From a virus, in IMG/VR virus record IMGVR_UViG_3300012936_000185, positions 1-22,897 of that record: DNA of 22,897 nucleotides. One strand, given 5' to 3'. Shown here piece after piece: positions 2 to 22,897 of the stretch. The notes beneath the pieces are model-generated. The model worked only from the letters and a program-made list of their open reading frames with translations. It was not told the DNA's origin and made no database searches. The translations under genes and the position numbers were made by a program. Position 1 is the stretch's first letter. Each line of letters opens with the position of its first letter.

Positions 2-268
2 CTGATTGAACTTGAAAATGGTCAATATGCACTGTATCCTAACAACAGAATGCGTATTTTTGACAATAGTTTGACACCTGTTGATCCTAAGATGCCTGAT
101 TTTAAGGTATCAACACAATATTACAGTGTTGAAAATGGTTTTGAGCGCCTTGGAATGGGTCGTGAGGACGAATATTTCTGGAAAACTGCGAAAGAGCGCG
201 AAAGAGAAGAAGAAACAGCAGAAGATATGTACAAATCACAAGAGGATCGTCCTCTTGACACTCAATAA
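2..268 (+). CDS. C-terminal part of an unrecognised phage protein (5' end outside window)
   Basis: The frame is open from the window edge to TAA at 266-268, giving at least 88 residues; an internal ATG at 50 is probably not the true start. The visible part contains LYPNNRMRIFDNSL, then a stretch ending VENGFERLGMGREDEYFW, and finishes in a strongly charged, probably helical tail (KEREREEETAED). I see no membrane segment or catalytic motif. I do not recognise the family. Its place directly upstream of a baseplate cluster, on the same strand, fits a small conserved gene of marine T4-like phages, but that is inference. The stop codon overlaps a late-promoter-like box. The competing frame-3 ORF at 81-272 is a shadow, because only this frame continues to the window edge. 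Confidence 0.75.
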   Translation: MIELENGQYALYPNNRMRIFDNSLTPVDPKMPDFKVSTQYYSVENGFERLGMGREDEYFWKTAKEREREEETAEDMYKSQEDRPLDTQ

Positions 269-271
269 ATA
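264..271 (+). promoter_or_regulatory. T4-type late promoter box AATAAATA
   Basis: The octamer AATAAATA fits the T4-like late consensus TATAAATA/NATAAATA and overlaps the stop codon of the preceding gene. It lies 16 bases before the ATG at 288, so a transcript starting a few bases downstream would have a very short leader. AT-rich sequence makes chance matches likely. The same arrangement before gp8 supports it. Confidence 0.5.
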
Positions 272-473: not shown

Positions 474-489
474 ACTCTAAAAAACCGCG

Positions 490-497
490 TCTAAATA
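490..497 (+). promoter_or_regulatory. late-promoter-like box TCTAAATA upstream of gp25
   Basis: TCTAAATA differs from NATAAATA at one position (C for A) and is followed by AG, like the box before gp8 (…TAAATAAG). Initiation a few bases downstream would leave a leader of about 20 bases before the gp25 ATG. It would exclude the left arm of the inverted repeat at 481-489. GTCTAAAT is repeated directly at 489-496 and 518-525. Confidence 0.4.
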
Positions 498-498
498 A

Positions 499-520
499 GA
501 CAGAATCATAGTATTTTGTC
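499..520 (+). other. hairpin immediately before the gp25 start codon
   Basis: GACAGAAT (499-506) can pair with ATTTTGTC (513-520) over 8 bp with one G-U wobble, leaving a six-base loop. It ends three bases before the ATG at 524, where a ribosome must load, and no clear Shine-Dalgarno sequence is present. A CCTCTAGAGG palindrome follows at 527-536. The stem is AU-rich, so its stability is uncertain. Confidence 0.4.
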
Positions 521-523
521 TAA

Positions 524-925
524 ATGCCTCTAGAGGGAGTCAGTCGCGGTTTTAAAGATATTAGTTTTTCGTTTGGAAAGCATCCAATCAGCAATGATTT
601 GGTTGCATTAACAAATGAAAGTGCAATATCTCGTGCTGTTCGCAATTTAGTGTTGACTAAGATTGCTGAGAGACCCTTTAATAGAGATCTTGGTACAAAA
701 GTAAAGGACGCACTATTTGAAAACTTTGATGCGATTACCGCTAACATCATTGAGGATGAGATTCGTTTTATATTGAATCGTTATGAAGAAAGAATAACAA
801 TCAGAGACGTGTCTGTTCTGCATGACAATGATTCAAGTATCGTTGAGTGTAAAATAAAATACGAAATCGTAGGTAGACCAGAAACACTTCAGGAACTCAC
901 ATTTGCATTAGAGTCGGTTCGATAA
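524..925 (+). CDS. gp25: gp25-like baseplate wedge protein
   Basis: This 133-residue product matches T4 gp25 in length (132 aa) and pattern. gp25 belongs to the GPW/gp25 family, an inner wedge component that links the baseplate to the first sheath ring. The family core is visible: ERPFNRDLGTKV at about residues 49-60, then ALFENF and ITANIIEDEI, then NRYEERI at about 86-91. This lines up with the T4 stretch containing RPFDPEFG, QLFEN, TADTVE and NYEPRI, as I recall it. The family's Glu-Pro-Arg triplet reads Glu-Glu-Arg here. The start at 524 is chosen because MPLEGVSRGFKDI gives the expected length. The leader lacks an obvious Shine-Dalgarno site and is potentially structured. The stop is immediately followed by the gp6 ATG, suggesting coupled translation. 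Confidence 0.93.
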   Translation: MPLEGVSRGFKDISFSFGKHPISNDLVALTNESAISRAVRNLVLTKIAERPFNRDLGTKVKDALFENFDAITANIIEDEIRFILNRYEERITIRDVSVLHDNDSSIVECKIKYEIVGRPETLQELTFALESVR

Positions 926-13300: not shown

Positions 13301-15874
13301 AGAGACATCTACCAAGGACCAAGAAGAGCAGATGATGTAGTTATTATTGGTGGTGATTATGAACTTGTTGAGGGTTCTGGAATAACCACTGCTATTTTCC
13401 AAGGAACTGATAATAATGTCAAGTATGACAACAATACAAACAACATCCCCAGAGGCGGTATAATAGTCTCTCTTGGATCAACAGAGTCTCGTGGGTATCA
13501 ACCCCTCATTGGTGCTGGAGCGACCGCCACAGTGTCTTCTGGGGCGATTACAGCGATCTCTATTGGTAACACTGGAGCTGGTTATAGAGAGTGGTATCAA
13601 ACTGAAATATTAGTCAGTGCTTACAATCCAGTAACAGGAACATCTTCAACTATTGGTGTTGCAACTGTATTTGATGGTCATGTTATTGGTACAAGACTGG
13701 ATTCTCCAGGAACTGGATATGCCAGCACCAATCCTCCAACAATATTACTTGATCATCCTTCAGGATATTCAAATATTCCACTGATATACTCTAATGATTA
13801 TCCTAATAATAGTGGAGTTGGTACAGGTTTAGTTGTTGATATAACTGTAGGACAAGGTTCTACGGTAGTCGATTTCAACATTGTTAACTATGGATTTGGA
13901 TATAAAGAAGGAGACATTCTCACTATTCCAAGAAGTGGTATTGGTAGTATACCTCGTGATTCTGGTATTGGTCATGTTGAGTTTACACTCACTGTACAAA
14001 AAACCTATAGAGATGAGTTCAGTGGATGGTCTCCTGGAAACTTCCAGAGATTTGACGATATAAGCACTCTCTTTAACGGATATAGAACTGCATTCCCATT
14101 AGTCTTTAATGGAGTTAGAACATCTATCCGTGCTAAGAAAGGATCTCAAATCGACGTACAAGCAGCATTACTTGTCTTTATCAATGATATTCTCCAGATC
14201 CCTGGAGAAGGTTATATCTTTGATGGTGGATCTACTATTACATTCACTGAGGCACCTATTGGATATGATGAATCTGCACCATATAATGGTGATCAAGTTA
14301 AGATCATGTTCTATAGAGGATCTAAGGATATTGATGTTGTTTTAGTAGATGTTCTTGAAACCATTAAGGTTGGCGATACTGTTGAACTATATGATGATCA
14401 TCCTGTATACGATGAGGATCCAAGACTTGTTGTAGATATTACAGCGACTGATACTTTAGAAACTAACGTTTATCCTGGTCCTGGAATCTCCACAGATCTT
14501 TCTTATGAGAGAGCATTACAGTGGTGCCGTCAAACCGAAGATAAGATTATCAATGATCAACCAGTAGCAAAAGATAGAGAAATCTATAAATCACTGGTAA
14601 ATCCAGCAGCTGCTATCTTGCAGGATGTTGGAGTTGGTGATACTACAATCTACGTTGAGAGTGTTAGGACATTCTTTGACAGCACCAAAGAAAATGCTCA
14701 AGGAAAGATTAAAAACTCTATTGAGATTATGTCTCAAGATGCAGTATGTGCCGCTGCTGCAACTGCTGTAGTTTCCGCTGCTGGTACTATCTCATCTATT
14801 GTTCTTACAGATCCAGTCACTGGACTTGGAACTACAGGTGCTGGTGGATCTGGATATTTAACTGCCCCAGATGTAACCATATCACTACCAACTGGAATAG
14901 GTATAACAGGTAAAGCAGAAGCAACCGCTAACATTAGCAATGGAATGGTGACTAGTTTCACCATTACTAATCCTGGTTATGGATATACATTTACCAATGT
15001 TCCTTTGGTAATGATATCAGAACCCAAACTTCATAAGGAAGAACTTCTCGGTAAGGGTTATAGTGGTGATTTTGGTATTATTGTTGGTGTTGCCACAACA
15101 TCAGTTGTTGGAACTGCAACTACTGGAGTTAAGGGTTTAATTCTTAATCTTGAGATCGAAGATGATTCTTTCCTCAGAGATCCTGCATATGTGGGAACTG
15201 CTATTAGCGAAACTAGAATTCAAGTTGGAGATTACTTTGCTATTAGTAACACCAACTTAGGTTTTGGAATGACTGCTCTTAGATATGCTGATGGATCTGT
15301 GATTAGTTATGGATCAACATTCTTTGATGGAATCTATCAAGTTGCTAATGCTGAATATGGATCAAGTCTTGCAGGGACTTTAATCGAAGAAACTCGCTAT
15401 GTCACTATTGACTTTGAAATGTTTGATAGTCCTGTTGTGGTCGGTCCAAATGACCCAGACGGAACTCTTATCACTGGCTCACCATTCACATTTAGTGTAA
15501 CAGAAACTATTGATAGTCCTGTAGAGATTTCTGCAACATCTACTGCAAGAATATTAAATGGAGTCACTCTTACAATTGATGATATTGCAAGAACTGCCCT
15601 TATTGTTAATGATTCTGCGAGAGCAATCATTGGTGACAGTGTTCCCTCTAGAATCACAGTTCGGGTTGAAGACTACAACGGACTTGTTCCACAACAATAT
15701 CCAGGTAGTTATAAAGGAAGATTCTATGGTGACTATAGTTGGGGTAAGATTGACATTACTCAAAGGACTTCAACTAGAGACTTTGTTGGATATTCTACAG
15801 AAGGTTATGTTGGTCTTTCATCTTCACCATTTATTAGAAGAAAGAATCCACTTAAGACAATCAACTATCTTTGA
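7388..15874 (+). CDS. giant gp7-like baseplate wedge protein, part after the internal TAA (5' limit uncertain)
   Basis: The first standard alternative start codon after the TAA is TTG at 7388, but the frame is open from 7301. Residues encoded by 7301-7387 complete a recurrent module, so TTG is probably not a natural start. From TTG the product would be 2,828 residues. Visible modules: HG-x-x-x-G at 7852, 8399 and 12442; an INDE-type module at 7478 with a copy near 12850; G-x-G-Y units near 9246, 9370, 9479, 13562, 13696, 13879, 14839 and 14962; YQYFSYSVKSEVD then DHTAGFKKF near 10316-10415; and FDDIS-T-x-F-N-G units near 13193 and 14051, the second followed by LLVFINDILQIPGEGY. Such beta-rich modules are common in phage tail and fibre proteins. 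It ends RRKNPLKTINYL at TGA 15872-15874. I read it as the C-terminal two thirds of the protein begun at 2840, an outer baseplate wedge component. Confidence 0.8.
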   Translation: MRSGIGSTSTTGIVTFVSVSGEISDISSDDIYTINDEKVRVLNVDEKSSRLRVERNYDGTVGLAHSASSFVFESPRRLFVNVGYSEKLDLKANKKIYFNPTESIAAAGFGATDLVSVINVGVVTFVGISSAITVSISNPGTGVTAVTLSEKQIYLPNHGLETNDKLVYTPSGGDSIKVSLAQSARTVIDGNTVVATDYVVGINTFTLSSQHILYAAKISDDIIGIATNPVAKVDGTFVGIGSTSSGLLFFTNLGSGQKHNFTTQYSNTISGSINRNVVTVSTASTHALVANESLKIDVLSGVTTTLKLSYNEETRRVLGPKKSFTRAEVDLLDNIIEIPNHGFVTGQKVVYVSALSSSDRVILKDTVISETTIFPSPLEVERPFTLRATSTGVIIVDADAIPNNSIFYVTVLDYNRIQLATSYHNATKPTPTVVDLISNTFGSVSPVNPPIALIKNQTVDFDLSDPSLSYKRGSIDYPAFEFNLYTDANFKNKFFSSTQTDVFEVTSSGKIGTSGAKISILVSDYLPKNLYYRLTPVDITETPEPFREVLVDDENIPNNNAIIVTSSGYSGNHRITGVTTDTIQYNVLLKPEKDSYNTSEAVMTYSTNSRRAIGPINDINIRSGGKNYELLPAITSVGSTWGRGAILEAESSSIGKVDHYCINDIGFDYPSDNTLRPSISVPQILKLEPLAAIEKIGISSVGVGYGIAPDLIFIDGNTGKVVDVDLSYKLGDSTVTINKNSTEIYNITPVIIPTNNTNGVGISSITYDSGQKTVEIVLKTVGYSTASTFPFEVGDKIYVENVSVGVGSTGRGFNSEKYNYKLFTVTETDPNIGGANPTIKYSLDGDLTDGRVPGVFDSSNSAGRVIPQKYFPIFAVTLRKNTFIQGEIVRSGLKEGLVESWNFRGDDLNVRLTSDSTFKTGDIVRGETSGSVATIESNKTYKASYVIGGTSIVENGFLKDTGRVNFDLQRLHDNDYYQYFSYSVKSEVDLEKWDNAVSSLDHTAGFKKFSDLQLVSAGATTGIATDQNDGDFLGIANIDQLIDLNCVNDYDLATENNIFINDEVRSDEIILKTRDLQDYFESIGNRVLMIDDISDQFNDRPRPTRFSVIDEFPLTSFRARKYLLFVRDRRFTETRENIFVSVLHDDQFGYLNQYARVETVEDMGYFDFDIVNGNGRLLFFPEKFRFNNFDVTFAAYGLKDGISGVGDTSLGNVSEIRTTTKDVPTGVVTPIVSIANTYRASKLLIDIQTDDQRYEFDEFTIIHDGNGSCGEIDAIEYAQLTSHSRDDASSVGLGTYSVVCGAATTQSYLVGLSTALFTSLVGFATAPNGTGIGNNGGFAIGTHLKVFGDTGIGTDKRVAITTSLDVQTLDTFVLTGLAGDDNNGGEEPMDAVGRNESLVLNYSIDGGTTFIGIGTIIGPNDVTAPLREYSLTIPVAARTSSTIFQIEQPTSNGSAFDEYGITHIGFRDSSGTDNIIVNFHPFAGVAATVDILRVSIGDTSATGVGTTTLNTAIIDSNYTSIGSSSSPIENTVATYDARIYNGGYYIATVEDLTNGYSQVSELMVANNDQFTNITEFGELVTMVTLGEFGIRRSGDEVQITFEPNPDADMEVRIFQNAMRLVDPLNGVTTVDLNNGTIQTGAGEYFGTENDVKRSFELTHRNLPIFRRVFDPGAVGVVSITDNTFRIPENFFVTGEEVTYTAADRLILPEPVGIATTTIAGVSTDKLPSTVYIVKLNELDVQVAASASEALSVPPSVLDITSVGVGTVHRFDARKQNTKGLVALDTMIQSPIAGSAITMSLVETVQPTTDRITLSGITSVFAGDLLKVNNEIMRVATVGVGTTNVLIVNRPWMGTGLGTHQSGDGITKIVGNYNIQDNQLHFAAAPFGAYPLSTTSGRVDERDWTGVTTHSTFSGRIFTKTSEEGSNIEPYANNVIFDDISTDFNGITTSFRLKSEGNDVTNVAQDNGIILVRDIYQGPRRADDVVIIGGDYELVEGSGITTAIFQGTDNNVKYDNNTNNIPRGGIIVSLGSTESRGYQPLIGAGATATVSSGAITAISIGNTGAGYREWYQTEILVSAYNPVTGTSSTIGVATVFDGHVIGTRLDSPGTGYASTNPPTILLDHPSGYSNIPLIYSNDYPNNSGVGTGLVVDITVGQGSTVVDFNIVNYGFGYKEGDILTIPRSGIGSIPRDSGIGHVEFTLTVQKTYRDEFSGWSPGNFQRFDDISTLFNGYRTAFPLVFNGVRTSIRAKKGSQIDVQAALLVFINDILQIPGEGYIFDGGSTITFTEAPIGYDESAPYNGDQVKIMFYRGSKDIDVVLVDVLETIKVGDTVELYDDHPVYDEDPRLVVDITATDTLETNVYPGPGISTDLSYERALQWCRQTEDKIINDQPVAKDREIYKSLVNPAAAILQDVGVGDTTIYVESVRTFFDSTKENAQGKIKNSIEIMSQDAVCAAAATAVVSAAGTISSIVLTDPVTGLGTTGAGGSGYLTAPDVTISLPTGIGITGKAEATANISNGMVTSFTITNPGYGYTFTNVPLVMISEPKLHKEELLGKGYSGDFGIIVGVATTSVVGTATTGVKGLILNLEIEDDSFLRDPAYVGTAISETRIQVGDYFAISNTNLGFGMTALRYADGSVISYGSTFFDGIYQVANAEYGSSLAGTLIEETRYVTIDFEMFDSPVVVGPNDPDGTLITGSPFTFSVTETIDSPVEISATSTARILNGVTLTIDDIARTALIVNDSARAIIGDSVPSRITVRVEDYNGLVPQQYPGSYKGRFYGDYSWGKIDITQRTSTRDFVGYSTEGYVGLSSSPFIRRKNPLKTINYL

Positions 15875-15880
15875 TAAATA
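15873..15880 (+). promoter_or_regulatory. T4-type late promoter box GATAAATA upstream of gp8
   Basis: GATAAATA fits NATAAATA exactly and overlaps the TGA of the preceding giant gene, as the box at 264-271 overlaps its upstream stop. It lies 19 bases before the gp8 ATG, giving a leader of roughly a dozen bases. A promoter here would let gp8 and the next gene be expressed independently of the 13-kb gene upstream. Confidence 0.6.
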
Positions 15881-15899: not shown

Positions 15900-17495
15900 A
15901 TGGCTGCCATTATAACTGACCAACTGAGGATTTTGAATGCTAAGAACTTTGTTTCTTTGGCATCATCTGATAAAAACTCATATTATGCGTTTGTTGGTCT
16001 ACCCCACCCACAGGAGTTGTATTCAGATTGGGATACAACTCCACCTGCTCCTAAGGATGCTGAAGATCAGGAGAACTCTTATTGGGACACGATGATCGCT
16101 CTCAAAAAGATTATACCTGGTGATGTCAGACAGGTAGTCAGAAAGATTGAGTGGGTCTCTGGAAATACTTATGATATGTATCGTCATGATATAACTAGAG
16201 ATCATCCATCTAAACCATCTCAAGCACTCAGTATTTACTCTGCAAATTATTATGTTGTAAATAGCGATTTCAGAGTTTATATTTGCTTACAAAATGGTAC
16301 TAACCCAGAAAACCCAAATGGGAGACCCTCTCTTGATGAACCAACATTCACAGACTTAGAACCAAGGGCAGCTGGTTCTAGTGGTGATGGTTATGTCTGG
16401 AAGTATCTCTATACTATCAAACCAAGTGATATTGCAAAGTTTGATACTATTAACTTTATGCCAGTTCCAAAAAACTGGGATACTGAAACTTCAACAGACG
16501 CTTGTGGTAACAATGTAGCATCTGTTAGAGAAAATGCTGGCACCAGTGGACAAATCAAAATTTGTACCATCAAGAATCGTGGCGTTGGCATTGGAACTGC
16601 CAATACAACATACACTAAAGTTCCTATCAGAGGTGATGGATCTGGTGCAGAGTGTACTATTGTAGTTAATAATGATTCAAAAGTAGAGTCTGTTACTGTC
16701 TCTAATGGTGGTTCTGGTTATTCATATGGAACTATAGACACAAATGCTGGTGGTGTTCCATCAGGAACTACTTCTCCAGTGTTTGACGTGATTATTCCAC
16801 CACAAGGTGGTCATGGGGCAGATATTTACAGAGAACTTGGTGCTTTTAGAGTCTTGGTTTATTCAAGAATTGAAAATGACACTCAAGATCCAGATTTTAT
16901 TACTGGAAACCAGATTTCTAGAATTGGTTTGGTAGAAGATCCAAAAGCATTTGGAACAACTACTGTTTTAAGAAAATCAAAAGCAAGTGCTCTGGGTGCT
17001 ATTCGTTTGGGTATTGGATACAGCACTGCAACATATCCAGCAGACTCTGTGATTTATCAAACTATTGGAACAGGATCTACTGCTGTTGCTAGAGTTGTAT
17101 CTTACGATAAAACAACAGGTGTATTGAAGTATTGGCAGGATAGAACTCTTGTTGGATTTAATACCGATACAACAAATCTTCTTGAGTTCACTAAAAATAC
17201 CTCTCCAACATATGGATTTGATTTAAAGGATTTTACAGCAACTCCATCTAGTGGCGGATCTATTCAAATCATCAAAGCAGGTGACACTGCAGGTGTTGGT
17301 ATTGATACTGCACTTACTGGTTCTACACTGTCACTAAATAATAAAACATACAACTTGGGTCAAGAGTTTACAAGTGGTCTGGCGAATCCAGAGGTTCAAA
17401 AGCACACTGGAAATATTCTTTATGTAGATCATAGACCTGCGATTACAAGATCTCAAAATCAAAGAGAAGACATAAAAATAGTATTGCAATTCTAA
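15900..17495 (+). CDS. gp8: gp8-like baseplate wedge protein with extra modules
   Basis: The product has 531 residues against 334 for T4 gp8, which sits in the outer wedge with gp7 and gp10. Two segments match T4 gp8 well: SGDGYVWKYLYTIKPSDI at about residues 161-178 (T4 GDGYVWEYLFEIPPDV) and HTGNILYVDHRPAI near 502-515, followed by DIKIVLQF at the end (T4 HSGEMIYMENRPPI… INILFTF). YRELGAFRVLVYSRI, about residue 309, marks the central conserved strand region. The extra length lies mainly at about 215-300, which carries G-x-G-Y units (VSNGGSGYSYGTI), and about 365-430 (VIYQTIGTG, ARVVSYDKTTGVLKYWQD). The start MAAIITDQLRILNAKNFV is the first ATG after a late promoter; the ribosome site is weak. 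The next gene starts six bases after its stop. Confidence 0.92.
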   Translation: MAAIITDQLRILNAKNFVSLASSDKNSYYAFVGLPHPQELYSDWDTTPPAPKDAEDQENSYWDTMIALKKIIPGDVRQVVRKIEWVSGNTYDMYRHDITRDHPSKPSQALSIYSANYYVVNSDFRVYICLQNGTNPENPNGRPSLDEPTFTDLEPRAAGSSGDGYVWKYLYTIKPSDIAKFDTINFMPVPKNWDTETSTDACGNNVASVRENAGTSGQIKICTIKNRGVGIGTANTTYTKVPIRGDGSGAECTIVVNNDSKVESVTVSNGGSGYSYGTIDTNAGGVPSGTTSPVFDVIIPPQGGHGADIYRELGAFRVLVYSRIENDTQDPDFITGNQISRIGLVEDPKAFGTTTVLRKSKASALGAIRLGIGYSTATYPADSVIYQTIGTGSTAVARVVSYDKTTGVLKYWQDRTLVGFNTDTTNLLEFTKNTSPTYGFDLKDFTATPSSGGSIQIIKAGDTAGVGIDTALTGSTLSLNNKTYNLGQEFTSGLANPEVQKHTGNILYVDHRPAITRSQNQREDIKIVLQF

Positions 17496-17501
17496 CGAAT
17501 T

Positions 17502-20500
17502 ATGCCACAGGAACTCAACCTCAACGTATCGCCATATTTTGACGATTTCAATAAAGATAAAGAATACTACAAGGTTCTATTCAAACCTGGGTATCCTGTA
17601 CAGGCGAGAGAGCTAACTGGTCTCCAGTCAATTCTACAGAACCAGATAGAGCAGTTTGGTAACCACGTTTTTAAGGAGGGATCTGTTGTAATCCCTGGCC
17701 AGATCAGTTATATTGACAACTACTATGCAGTAGAAGTTCAATCTGAGTATCTTGGCATTAACATTTTAGCATATCTCAAATCTCTTGTTGGTAAAACGAT
17801 AAGAGGAGAAAATACTGGTGTTAGAGCAACAATCATTTCGGTATTGCCATCTACAGAGTCTGAAAGAGGTAACAACACTTTATACGTAAACTTTTTAGAT
17901 TCTGATTATCTTACTTCTTCATATCAATCTTTTGCAAATGATGAAGTTCTCCTTTTAGAGGAAGGTTTATTTGGATCTAATGAAATTGAAGCGGGTAAAA
18001 GTATTATTGTTCAACCTGGATCTGGTTTTGCAGTAACTATTCCTGTTAATACGAACTCGGTTGGTTCAGCAATATATTTGAATGAAGGAGTATATTTTTT
18101 AAGAGGTTATTTTGTAACTGTTCCTGAGCAAACTTTAATCCTTGATCAATATAGCAATACATCTAGTTATAGAGTTGGTTTTCAAATAACAGAAGAGGTT
18201 GTAGACTCTAATGAAGACGAATCTCTTGTAGATAATGCAAAGGGATTCAATAACTATGCTGCTCCTGGAGCAGATAGATTAAAAATCACTGCAGATCTTG
18301 TTAAAATAGACCTCGGTCAAAATGACGTAGAAAACTTCGTAGAGTTATTAGAAGTAAGAAATGGAGTTTTAAGATCTTTAATCCAAGATTCTCAATATAA
18401 TATCCTTGGTGATGAACTGGCAAAGAGAACTTTTAATGAATCTGGTGATTACTACATTAATCAACCAACTGTCATTTCAAAAGAAACTCTCAATGACCTT
18501 AAGGGAAATGGTGGTATTTTTAATGCAGGAGAGGTAACTTATAATAACAATAATCCAAGTGATGATCTGGCAACATATCAGATTTCTCCAACTAAAGCAG
18601 TTGTAAAAGGATATTCTGTAGAAACTATCAGCTCTGCTTTTGTAGATTTCCCCAAACCAAGAACTACAAAATCAGTTACTAACCAAAGAACAAACTATGT
18701 AACTGGTCCAACATATACTCTTAATAGAGTTCATGGTTCTCCAGAAATTGGCATTGGAACTAATTTTGTTGTTCATTTGATGGATTCCCGTAAGGGAGCA
18801 TCTGGAATCGCCTCTGCTGGAAGGGAAATTGGACTTGCTAGAGTTTATGACTTTGCATTAGAAAGTGGATCTTATGATACCACTAATCCAGATACTAATG
18901 AATATGATATTTCATTGTATGATATTCAAACATACACAGAAATAACCCTGAATCAAGGAGTTGAACTTACTGTTCCTACTCATGTAAGAGGAAAATCTAG
19001 TGGTGCAACTGGATTTTTAAGATATAATACATCTGGGGGAAGACTCCTCACAGTATATAATACCAAAGGAAAGTTTAGAGATGGTGAAGAGTTTATCTTT
19101 GACGGTGTAGATAACTCTAGAGTTTCTGTCGCAACTACTGCGTATGGAACGGAGCAAGTAAAATCAATATTTGCCACTGTTGCAATAGGGGGAACATTTA
19201 ACGCTGATATCAAACAGCGCACTGCAACCACTGTAGGTTTTGTAAGCATCACAGCTTCATCTGGTGGAGTTAGTACTGTAACTTCTGCTGATGTTAACTT
19301 CGTGGGTATTGCAACTCTTGGAAGCACGGTAGCATTTACTAATGCTGGTTACTCTACGGTAAGTCTTGCTAGAGTCAACAGTGTTTCTAGATCTTCTTTG
19401 ACTATTGCTGGTGTAACAACAGTTGCTGGTATTTGTGATGGTGCTCTTCCCACAAATACTATTTCTCCAAGCGATTTTAGAATATTATCTTCATCGTTCC
19501 AGTCTTCAACTGATAATACTCTTTATACAGTATTACCTAAGAAGAATATTTCTAATGTAGACACTGCAAACTCTTCTCTTATTATTAGAAAAAAATATTC
19601 AGTTACTGTTGCTAGTAATGAGACTAGCACGATTCAAACTAATGCAGGCGAAACCTTCTTACCATTTGATGAAGAGAGATATCTTCTCATGCGTAATGAT
19701 GGAACTGTAGAGGAGTTAACTGCTGATAAGTTTATTTTTAACTCTGCGAATACAACTTTAAAGATTGAAGGTTTAGCAAATACTGATGGGGGCGCAACTC
19801 TGATTGCAACACTCACAAAATCATCAGTCACAGCGAAACAAAAAAATAGAAAGAAGATTAATGTTTTAAATCTTACTTTCTCATCAAATGCAGCATCTGG
19901 AGTTGGCACAACTACTCTCAATGACGCTCTTACCTATGGAACATATCCATATGGAACCAGAGTACAAGATAAGGATATCTGTTTACTAAAACCAGATGTT
20001 ACTAACCTCTGGGGTGTCTTTGAATCCGATGATAATGCATTTGCAGATCTGCCCTCTATCAATCTAACTGGAATCAGTGGCGTTAATGCAAAAACTACTG
20101 ATCTTCACATTGGTGAGGAGTTTGAAGGGCAGAGTAGTGGTGCTATAGGCATTTATTGTGAAAAGTTATCTGATAGTAAAATTGGATATATTTTACTTAA
20201 TCAAGAACTTTTCCAAGAAGGAGAAACCTTAAAGTTCAAAGAAACTGGTGTCCTAGCAACTGCAGAGATTACTAATAGAGGTGATAACAATATCACCAGA
20301 AACTATACTCTTGATAATGGTCAAAGATCTACGATTTATGATTATGGAAGAATTGTAAGAAAGGATCTCAAATCAGCACCAACAAGAAAGTTGAAAGTTG
20401 TATTTGAAACCGCTGAGTTTAGTTCTTCAGATGCTGGTGATATTATAACAGTTAACAGTTATAATGAGTTTGATTATGGTGATATCACTAGAGTAAATGG

Positions 20501-22897
20501 CATTCCAAACTCAGATATTCTTGATATTAGACCAAGAACGTCTACAGTAGGTGTTGTTACAACTGGAGATTTATCTCCCTTTGAGTTTAGAGGTAGATCT
20601 GTCAATGCTACTGGAAACTCTGTTCCTAATATTTTGGCAGGTGACGAACAGATTAATATTGGATATTCATATTATCTTCCTAGAATAGACAGACTGTTCT
20701 TGACCAAAGATGGTGTATTCCAGTTAAATCGTGGCACCCCTGCAGAAAGTCCTCAACTACCAAGTGCTGTCGATGATGCAATAGAAGTTGCAAGAGTATC
20801 CCTCCCAGCATATCTCTATAATGTTGATAATGCAGACATCGATGTCTTTGAGTATAAGAGATATAAGATGTCCGACATCAATAAACTTGAGAAGAGATTA
20901 AGTAATCTTGAACTCTTTACTGCATTATCTCTTCTTGAGGTTGATACTGCTAATCTTCCAATCAAAGATAACAATGGACTGATAAGATTTAAGTCTGGTT
21001 TCTTTGTTGATGACTTCTCTTCAACAAAGGCGCAAAGAAAGGAGACTATCGTAAAAAATAGTATTGATATTGTCAATAGTGAGTTAAGACCTGCTCCTTA
21101 TACTACTGAAGTTGATCTCCTTCTCGGAAGCACTTCTACAATAGGTATTAATGGCGCTGCAGATCCTTTTGTTGATACTGAGTTTGTTTCTGATTTACTT
21201 GGTTCAAATGTTAAGAAAACAGGACAACTTGTAACTCTTGATTACACAGAAGTTTCTGAAGTTGAGCAACCATATGCAACTAGACAAGAGAGAGTTTCTC
21301 CTATTCGTTCTTCTTACTATGGAGGAAGCATTGAGTTGACTCCATCATCAGATGTTTGGGTTGATCAAACAACAGTAAATGCTAGAAACAATGAATATCT
21401 GAGTAACTACACCGAATCTCCAGAACAGTTGGGTGTAACTGATAATGATAAGCAGACAGGATTTAACCCAGTTGTTTGGGGTTCTTGGGACACATTCTGG
21501 TCAGGTTTAGATGATGGATATTCATCTAATATCCTTGAAAACTATGATGTAGTAAATGATTACATTCAGACATATAACAAGACAGGAACGACTTCAGTTC
21601 AAAATGCAAGAAAGGTTCTGAAGAATCTTTTCGGTGATAATGCTAGTTCTCAGATTGTTCCATATCTCAGAACTAGAAATATTGAATTTGTTGCCAGAAG
21701 AATGAAACCATTTACAAGAGTTTATGGCGTCTTTGAAGGACAAGATATTCAAAAATATATGATTCCTAAACTGATAGAAATTGAAATGATTTCTGGTTCT
21801 TTCCAGGTTGGAGAGACAGTTGTTGGATTATTTGGAAGTAAGTTTGATACTAACATTCCATCAATCAAGTTTAGAGTTGCTCAACAAAATCATAAGTTTG
21901 GTCCATATAACCTGCCAACTCAAGTCTTTGGTGCAAATCCATATTCTAGAGAAGCAGTTATTCCTTCAGCATATTCAGCAACCTCTACAATATTAAACGT
22001 TGATACTTACAGTTTGTCTGCACAATCTCTTGGAGACTTCTACGGTTGGGTAACGACTAACATGACTTTAAGAGGTCAAACCAGTGGAGCTGAAGCAACC
22101 ATCAGAGACGTTAAGTTTATTACAGATCAAAAAGGTGTGGTTGTTGGTTCTCTCTTTATTCCAGATCCAAGTATTACATCAAACCCAGCATTTGAAAGTG
22201 GCGTAAAAACATTTAAACTTTCAAGTAACAAGGTTCTGTCTCAAACTAGTGGCGTTCCTCTTACAAGCGCAGAAGAAAAGTTCTATTCTGTTGGCATCTT
22301 AAATAATACTCAAGAGAATCTAACTGCTACACGTCCAGTTAGATCTGAAACTCAGAACCTTGTAGATTTCACTATTAATAGGAGTGGTAAGTCGTCTGTT
22401 GTTTCTACAACTACTTTAGGTAACGATTCTCCATCACAAACACCTAGTGGTGATATAGCATCTCCTACTGCAGGACTTCAAGGTGTTCAGGGAACTCAAG
22501 GTGCTCAAACATCTCAGTTTGTCTCTGGTATTCAAGGAACGGTAACTTCTATCGGAACAATAGAACCAACTGCTTCACCAGCATCTCCAGATACGGTTGC
22601 TCCTGGTCCTGTTAATATTGCAAGTGAGTTTTTCTCTGTTTCTATAGGTCCATCAGCAACATCGACAAACTTAACTGCTTCTGCAAATGAAACTGTAGAA
22701 GTAAGCACAACGTTTTTAGCAACCTCTGATATTTCTCAGTCTTCTAGTGCTAGCAACAATAATGGCGGTGGTTCTAGTAGTTCTAGTAGTTCTAGTAGTT
22801 CTGGCAGCAGTGGATCAGGTGGTAGCAGCGGATCAGGCGGCAGTAGTGGATCAGGTGGTAGCAGCGGATCAAGTGGCAGTAGTGGATCAGGTGGTAG
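17502..22897 (+). CDS. very large virion structural protein with DUF4815-type N-terminus (3' end outside window)
   Basis: From ATG 17502 the frame is open to the window edge, at least 1,798 residues. The N-terminus has SPYFDDFNKDKEYYKVLFKP, then GYPVQARELTGLQSILQNQI and FGNHVFKEGSVVIPG, the pattern of phage proteins I know as DUF4815. Around 1123-1165 a likely short coiled coil (MSDINKLEKRLSNLE) is followed by ALSLLEVDT, GLIRFKSGFFVDDF. Near 1395-1425, RRMKPFTRVYGVFEGQDI resembles a recurring phage fibre/baseplate motif. The C-terminal visible part is low complexity: four collagen-like triplets, an Ala/Ser/Thr/Pro-rich stretch, then Ser/Gly repeats. It follows gp8 where T4 has genes 9 and 10, suggesting a peripheral baseplate or fibre-attachment role. 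That role is inference; I see no enzyme motif. Confidence 0.88.
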   Translation, partial: MPQELNLNVSPYFDDFNKDKEYYKVLFKPGYPVQARELTGLQSILQNQIEQFGNHVFKEGSVVIPGQISYIDNYYAVEVQSEYLGINILAYLKSLVGKTIRGENTGVRATIISVLPSTESERGNNTLYVNFLDSDYLTSSYQSFANDEVLLLEEGLFGSNEIEAGKSIIVQPGSGFAVTIPVNTNSVGSAIYLNEGVYFLRGYFVTVPEQTLILDQYSNTSSYRVGFQITEEVVDSNEDESLVDNAKGFNNYAAPGADRLKITADLVKIDLGQNDVENFVELLEVRNGVLRSLIQDSQYNILGDELAKRTFNESGDYYINQPTVISKETLNDLKGNGGIFNAGEVTYNNNNPSDDLATYQISPTKAVVKGYSVETISSAFVDFPKPRTTKSVTNQRTNYVTGPTYTLNRVHGSPEIGIGTNFVVHLMDSRKGASGIASAGREIGLARVYDFALESGSYDTTNPDTNEYDISLYDIQTYTEITLNQGVELTVPTHVRGKSSGATGFLRYNTSGGRLLTVYNTKGKFRDGEEFIFDGVDNSRVSVATTAYGTEQVKSIFATVAIGGTFNADIKQRTATTVGFVSITASSGGVSTVTSADVNFVGIATLGSTVAFTNAGYSTVSLARVNSVSRSSLTIAGVTTVAGICDGALPTNTISPSDFRILSSSFQSSTDNTLYTVLPKKNISNVDTANSSLIIRKKYSVTVASNETSTIQTNAGETFLPFDEERYLLMRNDGTVEELTADKFIFNSANTTLKIEGLANTDGGATLIATLTKSSVTAKQKNRKKINVLNLTFSSNAASGVGTTTLNDALTYGTYPYGTRVQDKDICLLKPDVTNLWGVFESDDNAFADLPSINLTGISGVNAKTTDLHIGEEFEGQSSGAIGIYCEKLSDSKIGYILLNQELFQEGETLKFKETGVLATAEITNRGDNNITRNYTLDNGQRSTIYDYGRIVRKDLKSAPTRKLKVVFETAEFSSSDAGDIITVNSYNEFDYGDITRVNGIPNSDILDIRPRTSTVGVVTTGDLSPFEFRGRSVNATGNSVPNILAGDEQINIGYSYYLPRIDRLFLTKDGVFQLNRGTPAESPQLPSAVDDAIEVARVSLPAYLYNVDNADIDVFEYKRYKMSDINKLEKRLSNLELFTALSLLEVDTANLPIKDNNGLIRFKSGFFVDDFSSTKAQRKETIVKNSIDIVNSELRPAPYTTEVDLLLGSTSTIGINGAADPFVDTEFVSDLLGSNVKKTGQLVTLDYTEVSEVEQPYATRQERVSPIRSSYYGGSIELTPSSDVWVDQTTVNARNNEYLSNYTESPEQLGVTDNDKQTGFNPVVWGSWDTFWSGLDDGYSSNILENYDVVNDYIQTYNKTGTTSVQNARKVLKNLFGDNASSQIVPYLRTRNIEFVARRMKPFTRVYGVFEGQDIQKYMIPKLIEIEMISGSFQVGETVVGLFGSKFDTNIPSIKFRVAQQNHKFGPYNLPTQVFGANPYSREAVIPSAYSATSTILNVDTYSLSAQSLGDFYGWVTTNMTLRGQTSGAEATIRDVKFITDQKGVVVGSLFIPDPSITSNPAFESGVKTFKLSSNKVLSQTSGVPLTSAEEKFYSVGILNNTQENLTATRPVRSETQNLVDFTINRSGKSSVVSTTTLGNDSPSQTPSGDIASPTAGLQGVQGTQGAQTSQFVSGIQGTVTSIGTIEPTASPASPDTVAPGPVNIASEFFSVSIGPSATSTNLTASANETVEVSTTFLATSDISQSSSASNNNGGGSSSSSSSSSSGSSGSGGSSGSGGSSGSGGSSGSSGSSGSGG
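22473..22508 (+). repeat. collagen-like Gly-x-x run (4 triplets)
   Basis: In frame with the gene from 17502, the residues are Gly-Leu-Gln, Gly-Val-Gln, Gly-Thr-Gln, Gly-Ala-Gln. Collagen-like runs are common in trimeric phage fibres. Four triplets alone would not make a stable helix, so this may be a linker or a remnant. A further GIQGT follows soon after. Confidence 0.5.
22773..22799 (+). repeat. three exact 9-bp tandem repeats TCTAGTAGT
   Basis: TCTAGTAGT occurs at 22773-22781, 22782-22790 and 22791-22799, in frame with the large gene. With the next TCT codon it encodes ten serines after Asn-Asn-Gly-Gly-Gly. The units are identical at DNA level, which points to recent slippage duplication. 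Confidence 0.9.
22806..22897 (+). repeat. five 18-bp units encoding Ser-Ser-Gly-Ser-Gly-Gly, cut by window end
   Basis: Units begin at 22806, 22824, 22842, 22860 and 22878, each around GGATCA, and encode SSGSGG (the fourth SSGSSG). Odd and even units differ by synonymous changes (AGT GGA TCA GGT GGT against AGC GGA TCA GGC GGC or AGT GGC), giving a 36-bp higher period. The array runs on past the window. Confidence 0.92.

Follow-up and report, generated by a model that had tools for sequence, protein, structure and literature searches.

A putative T4-type late promoter upstream of gp25 lies within a predicted lineage-specific RNA fold in a probable marine T4-like phage

In bacteriophage T4, the box of late promoters occupies positions -13 to -6. 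This late TATA box is described as lying approximately one helical turn upstream of the transcription start, and in the late promoter of phage Aeh1 a/gC replaces TA at -13/-12 (PMC2988020). For cyanophage S-PM2, the late promoter NATAAATA was reported and was also found in others (PMC2984593). Some T4 genes are subject to control by RNA structure: e, soc, 49 and I-TevI are reported to be silenced in read-through RNA through pairing of the Shine-Dalgarno (SD) sequence and/or the AUG, and expression from an internal late promoter has been described for e and I-TevI (PMC3014915, PMC2988022). T4 gene 25 is likewise listed among the repressed genes, with a split ribosome-binding site (PMC3014915). 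A literature search found no title or abstract opening on cyanophage gp25 leaders.

Here, we analysed the region upstream of gp25 in a 22,897-nt stretch of viral DNA, the whole of which is referred to as the window. According to the list of open reading frames, the window starts with the tail end of an open frame on the + strand. This is followed on the same strand by a gene for 61 amino acids (288-473; phrog_12480, unknown function), the baseplate wedge gene gp25 (524-925, ATG at 524; Pfam PF04965, phrog_261) and, directly 3' of it, gp6 (926-2833; PF21379). Among the named matches of gp25, that to Synechococcus phage Bellamy ranks first, with 48% identity. This suggests that the DNA most likely comes from a marine T4-like phage that belongs to, or is close to, the Kyanoviridae, the family of Bellamy.

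The late promoter box and the gp25 leader

A preliminary description of this DNA had noted a late-promoter-like box at 490-497 (+ strand), and its position was confirmed. The box TCTAAATA, with C at the -12 position, is a form of the conserved motif [N][A/C]TAAATA, and its first base lies 34 nt upstream of the gp25 ATG. Given that Aeh1 has a/gC at -13/-12, the C at -12 has a precedent. CTAAATA occurs just twice in the window.

The motif is conserved at this place. Out of 242 loci searched, 241 contained gp25 and 8 were unusable (short upstream sequence or no start found); the remaining 233 and the window gave 139 distinct leaders. Of these, 132 carried [N][A/C]TAAATA at 20-50 nt ahead of gp25, compared to 40 of 2780 random sites from the same loci. 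The seven leaders without the box were L063, L065, L066, L111, L123, L166 and L167. A slightly wider motif was found in 149/159 leaders (158 usable leaders from 162 loci with gp25, plus the window) versus 71/3180 random sites. Both counts omit L081-L093, L096 and L097, which are duplicates or unrelated matches, and the 139-leader count also omits T4 (L258). After removal of near-duplicates, 87 dissimilar leaders remained, in which the box took the forms AATAAATA (31), TATAAATA (21), GATAAATA (21), TCTAAATA (8) and others (6). The form TCTAAATA itself was found in all of L001-L012, and Bellamy and P-SSM2 likewise carry a late box before gp25. In an alignment with six relatives, the promoter bases were identical at 8/8 positions in every one. 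Thus, an 8-mer similar to TATAAATA precedes a late gene at a position conserved beyond chance, as is characteristic of T4-type late promoters, and the assignment of TCTAAATA at 490-497 as the putative gp25 late promoter of this type is well supported.

Two further late-like boxes were observed in the window: AATAAATA at 264-271 (+ strand), just before the start of the 61-aa gene at 288, and GATAAATA at 15873-15880, just before a gene start at 15900. The gp25 late box itself sits within a small inverted repeat in the window (GTCTaaataAGAC, 489-501), in L006 (CTGTCTaaataAGACAG) and in L009 (TACCTTctaaatAAGGTA).

From the position of the box we infer a transcription start at approximately 503, 6 nt past the box. 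The late gp25 mRNA is predicted to begin with a leader of ~21 nt (503-523, + strand) that holds no SD sequence. SD-like 4-mers were detected in just 4 of the 87 dissimilar leaders. This suggests that gp25 in these phages is usually translated without an SD. A late sigma factor of the phage, together with its sliding clamp, would bring RNA polymerase to TCTAAATA, and transcription from near 503 would provide a short, AT-rich, SD-less leader for gp25 and probably also for gp6 downstream.

Folding around the promoter and its conservation

The promoter is enclosed by an inverted repeat. As the preliminary description had claimed, the left arm AAAACCGCG (481-489) and the right arm CGCGGTTTT (545-553), both on the + strand, form a perfect 9-bp repeat (9/9 pairs) around the box, a hairpin, a palindrome and the gp25 ATG. 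A weak extension with 79% pairing reaches 469-492/542-565, but it is not kept outside 481-553: the partner of 558 in the window, base 476, differs in L002, so that this pair is lost there. The leader hairpin, previously placed at 499-520, is present with one more base on each side (498-521, + strand; arms 498-506 and 513-521) and contains 9 pairs, one of them G-U. The palindrome CCTCTAGAGG (527-536, + strand; gp25 codons 2-5) also exists, although in the RNA fold of minimum energy 528-531 is instead paired with 536-539; the corresponding sequence is CCTTTAGAGG in L003 and L006 and CCATTAGAAG in L009.

A transcription start just past the box had been proposed to remove the left arm of this structure. 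Promoter conservation supports this: provided that the predicted start at ~503 is right, the late transcript would be without the 5' strand of the structure, as the box follows 481-489 and adjoins 498-506. One could also suppose that the leader hairpin aids translation, in the way that a structure between SD and AUG of T4 gene 25 improves initiation (PMC3014915). In the predicted late leader no SD-like sequence lies before the hairpin as in a split ribosome-binding site, and late initiation would itself remove half of the hairpin, making such a role scarcely credible.

Within the window, perfect 9-bp repeats whose loops measure 3-60 nt are frequent, with 19 overlapping matches versus 9.0 ± 4.0 in 40 shuffles; one has at least 5 G+C per arm, compared to 0.6 in the shuffles. 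For DNA this AT-rich, the 9-bp repeat by itself is nothing unusual. The combined fold is rarer. A 101-nt region, chosen after the fact, folds with -27.2 kcal/mol (z = -4.31), and 0/200 shuffles reached an energy as low. Across the window, 0/228 tiles had z ≤ -4.3 (lowest tile -4.26, 25 shuffles per tile), and the raw energy was equal or lower in 50/1140 tiles. By z, the combined fold is an outlier within the window, which counts against the reading that we favour below.

The pairing is conserved in the closest relatives only. All 22 pairs are common to the window, L001 and L002, which have 95% identical gp25, and the left arm is identical in these three. In L003, L006, L009 and L010 the left arm matches at 5/9 bases and the right hairpin arm at 5-6/9. 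The outer stem keeps 5/9 pairs in L003 (74% identity), 6/9 in L006 (65%) and 5/9 in both L009 and L010 (52%), and the hairpin keeps 6/9, 6/9, 5/9 and 5/9, respectively; 9/9 outer-stem pairing is confined to the window, L001 and L002 among the seven aligned sequences. These seven sequences gave no support for covariation in the outer stem plus hairpin, with 287/500 shuffles reaching the observed score, and the sole two-sided change among the aligned relatives is one A-U to U-G in L003. A lack of conserved pairing in related phages had been named beforehand as an outcome that would refute the regulatory fold, and this is what was observed: pairing is not conserved past ~95% identity and is broken at 74, 65 and 52%. 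Of the arms, 498-506 is nearly identical in the aligned relatives, in contrast to the left arm of the outer stem and the right arm of the hairpin. The fold z-scores of the same region in L005, L008, L009 and L010 range from -0.4 to -0.9. A viral scan with the left-arm sequence CCGCG-TCTAAATA matched just the contigs of L001 and L002. Scans of viral sequences by pattern or gp6 yielded no relatives in the 75-95% identity range, and the gp6 search turned up no additional contig lying between L001/L002 and L003/L006.

The right outer arm lies within gp25 codons 8-10 (Arg-Gly-Phe) and is part of Ser-Arg-Gly-Phe codons that are kept in relatives without the left arm. The use of CGC for Arg in this arm had been taken as a sign of maintained base pairing. 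CGC is indeed rare in the window (9/297 Arg codons versus 228 AGA, with an assumed frame for 17496-22897), but it does not indicate pairing, because L006, L009 and L010 keep CGC, and L003 has CGA, all without the outer stem.

Among the window, L001 and L002, 0/44 stem positions vary compared to 58/582 other positions in 300-925 (Fisher p = 0.026); in a local comparison of the same sequences the values are 0/44 versus 5/57 nearby non-stem positions (p = 0.067). Between the window and L001, no unchanged run is longer than 471-558 (88 nt, permutation p = 0.048). The unvaried stem positions speak weakly in favour of a switch, and part of the invariance is promoter and coding constraint.

Alternatively, the structure might act on the RNA, as a weak terminator of transcription or a site of RNase processing located after the 61-aa gene and before gp25. 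Consistent with this, the GC-rich stem ends in TTTT, and L033 and L044 have an intrinsic-terminator-like hairpin with a T run just upstream of their gp25 late promoter, which it sets apart from the preceding gene. In the window, however, the T run is located inside the stem, the loop measures 55 nt and the structure is not conserved. As a terminator scan found none on the + strand in 200-1000, we rejected the terminator reading for the window; an effect on termination or processing is highly improbable overall.

Predicted opening of the gp25 start region

The preliminary description had proposed silencing of the T4 e/soc type, with a gp25 leader that may fold in read-through RNA and be free in late RNA. 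In such a switch, RNA entering from upstream would fold into a three-way junction that blocks ribosomes at gp25, and late RNA without the left arm would be translated. The architecture is present and stable in the predicted read-through RNA, where outer stem and hairpin form with a probability of about 0.97 (outer stem 0.97-0.98). The lack of an intrinsic terminator in the scanned region is also compatible with such a switch, which has precedents among T4 genes such as e, soc, 49 and I-TevI (PMC3014915, PMC2988022), and so is the stem invariance among the three close sequences. However, computed folding of both RNAs placed the AUG in the junction of the read-through RNA, mostly unpaired (0.97/0.74/0.52 for its three bases). 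In the late RNA it is more paired (503-583: 0.71/0.08/0.02) or about equally open when the 3' end is longer (503-640: 0.59 each). Compared with read-through RNA, the late RNA is thus predicted to leave the AUG no freer.

Opening of the region -15 to +15 would cost 11.8 kcal/mol in read-through RNA versus 9.2 kcal/mol in late RNA, independent of the exact start within 500-507. While this difference is in the direction expected for a switch, opening of the AUG alone costs 0.6 in read-through versus 2.0-3.0 kcal/mol in late RNA, and the difference of 2.6 kcal/mol is below the family mean of 3.65 kcal/mol (45 leaders). When the upstream sequence was shuffled, 27 out of 100 shuffles were as closed as the window for -15 to +15, 3 for -10 to +10, 10 for -20 to +3 and 74 for the AUG alone. 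The few shuffles as closed at -10 to +10 and -20 to +3 suggest that a mild local closing of the gp25 start region is possible in this phage. The late-like box at 264-271 further suggests that the upstream 61-aa gene may itself be late. With the pairing unconserved, the AUG unpaired, no SD to hide and shuffled upstream sequence closing the start site equally well over 87 leaders, the proposed silencing was not supported, and we regard a read-through switch in this phage as unlikely.

A general read-through block across gp25 leaders was assessed by four forms of test, none of which we read as support. The opening cost of -15 to +15 in 87 leaders averaged 9.92 kcal/mol in read-through RNA versus 9.64 kcal/mol with shuffled upstream sequence (paired t p = 0.26; KS p = 0.59). 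For -20 to +3 the KS test gave p = 0.017, with the departure towards higher, not lower, p values, and among 45 leaders the opening cost gave KS p = 0.29. Duplex energies between the upstream and start regions of 55 leaders had a mean p of 0.42 (KS p = 0.005). As only 1/55 was at p ≤ 0.05, this departure does not reflect a surplus of strong cases. Pairs spanning the two regions in the same number of leaders averaged 10.4 versus 10.1 with shuffled upstream sequence (KS p = 0.36), and 10.4 versus 8.4 with whole-sequence shuffles (KS p = 0.009).

Individual leaders show folds of their own. In L108, opening is predicted to cost 20.2 kcal/mol in read-through versus 5.3 kcal/mol in late RNA (p = 0.02, the smallest value possible with 60 shuffles). 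About 45 nt ahead of gp25 in L108 and L110, there is a stem of ~7 bp (GAGATGG/CCATCTC) that ends immediately before the ATG and has ACTAAATA in an inner hairpin. In L040, L042 and L079, a long near-perfect repeat surrounds TCTAAATA within -50 to +30 nt of the gp25 ATG, which itself lies in a CGCC..GGCG hairpin. L102-L107, which are 68% identical to these three, fold around the promoter too, with different sequence. The spanning-pair p values were 0.007 for L040, 0.17 for L079 and 0.17 for L102, among 55 tests. The seemingly convergent fold of L040/L042/L079 may be taken as a lead only. Folds closing around their own promoter were also seen in L162, L114, L055 and L249. The occurrence of such folds outside the window's lineage speaks weakly for a switch.

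One could propose that read-through-blocking folds at the gp25 late promoter arise repeatedly in separate marine T4-like lineages, with the arrangement selected and no single stem conserved. The lineages concerned, each with its own sequence, would be the window with L001 and L002; L040/L079, perhaps with L102; L108/L110; and L114/L162. Some such enclosing folds are expected among 55-87 tests. We consider repeated selection quite improbable.

Separately, L121, L138, L149, L150, L159 and their kin share a conserved CAGC..GCTG hairpin that falls after the late box and before the gp25 ATG, at the presumed late start, and another hairpin takes its place in L114, L115 and L162. In 17 sequences of this clade (18 listed, with L127, which is without the hairpin, omitted), the leader hairpin gave no covariation signal over shuffles.

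The reading that we favour, with a probability of roughly three in four (0.77), is that gp25 has an ordinary, conserved late promoter of the T4 type, situated within a young, possibly accidental, lineage-specific fold that most likely has no regulatory role. The right outer arm would then be conserved protein-coding sequence, and the left arm of the outer stem, like the right arm of the hairpin, would be a peculiarity of the closest relatives. Any effect of the fold on translation of read-through RNA would be incidental or small.

Comparison with known late promoters and RNA switches

In common with the late promoters of T4 (TATAAATA), cyanophages (NATAAATA) and Aeh1, the window has an 8-bp box suitably spaced ahead of a late structural gene, with an AT-rich segment downstream of the box. 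Unlike in those promoters, the box joins T at -13 with C at -12, and the start site is a predicted one. The gp25 late promoter is new only as another member of the T4-type late promoters.

Akin to T4 e, soc and I-TevI, the window has a putative late promoter inside an inverted repeat, and its late transcript would be without the left arm. In contrast to these genes, there is no SD, the AUG is largely unpaired in the predicted read-through fold and the pairing is not conserved. The window differs from the e/soc type in the pairing of the SD or AUG in read-through RNA and in the upkeep of the structure by compensatory changes. The stem of L108/L110 is nearer to the e/soc layout than the window's own fold. 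A striking RNA fold around a promoter in a single genome should not be taken as a switch without relatives.

With T4 gene 25, the window shares the gene itself and RNA structure near its start. In T4, however, gene 25 directly adjoins gene 26, and within the 700 nt preceding the ATG of gene 25 the closest [N][A/C]TAAATA box is at -633, whereas gp25 of the window has its own putative promoter and no SD. This suggests that the conserved late promoter gives gp25 of marine T4-like phages its own short SD-less transcript, unlike in T4, where gene 25 follows right after gene 26.
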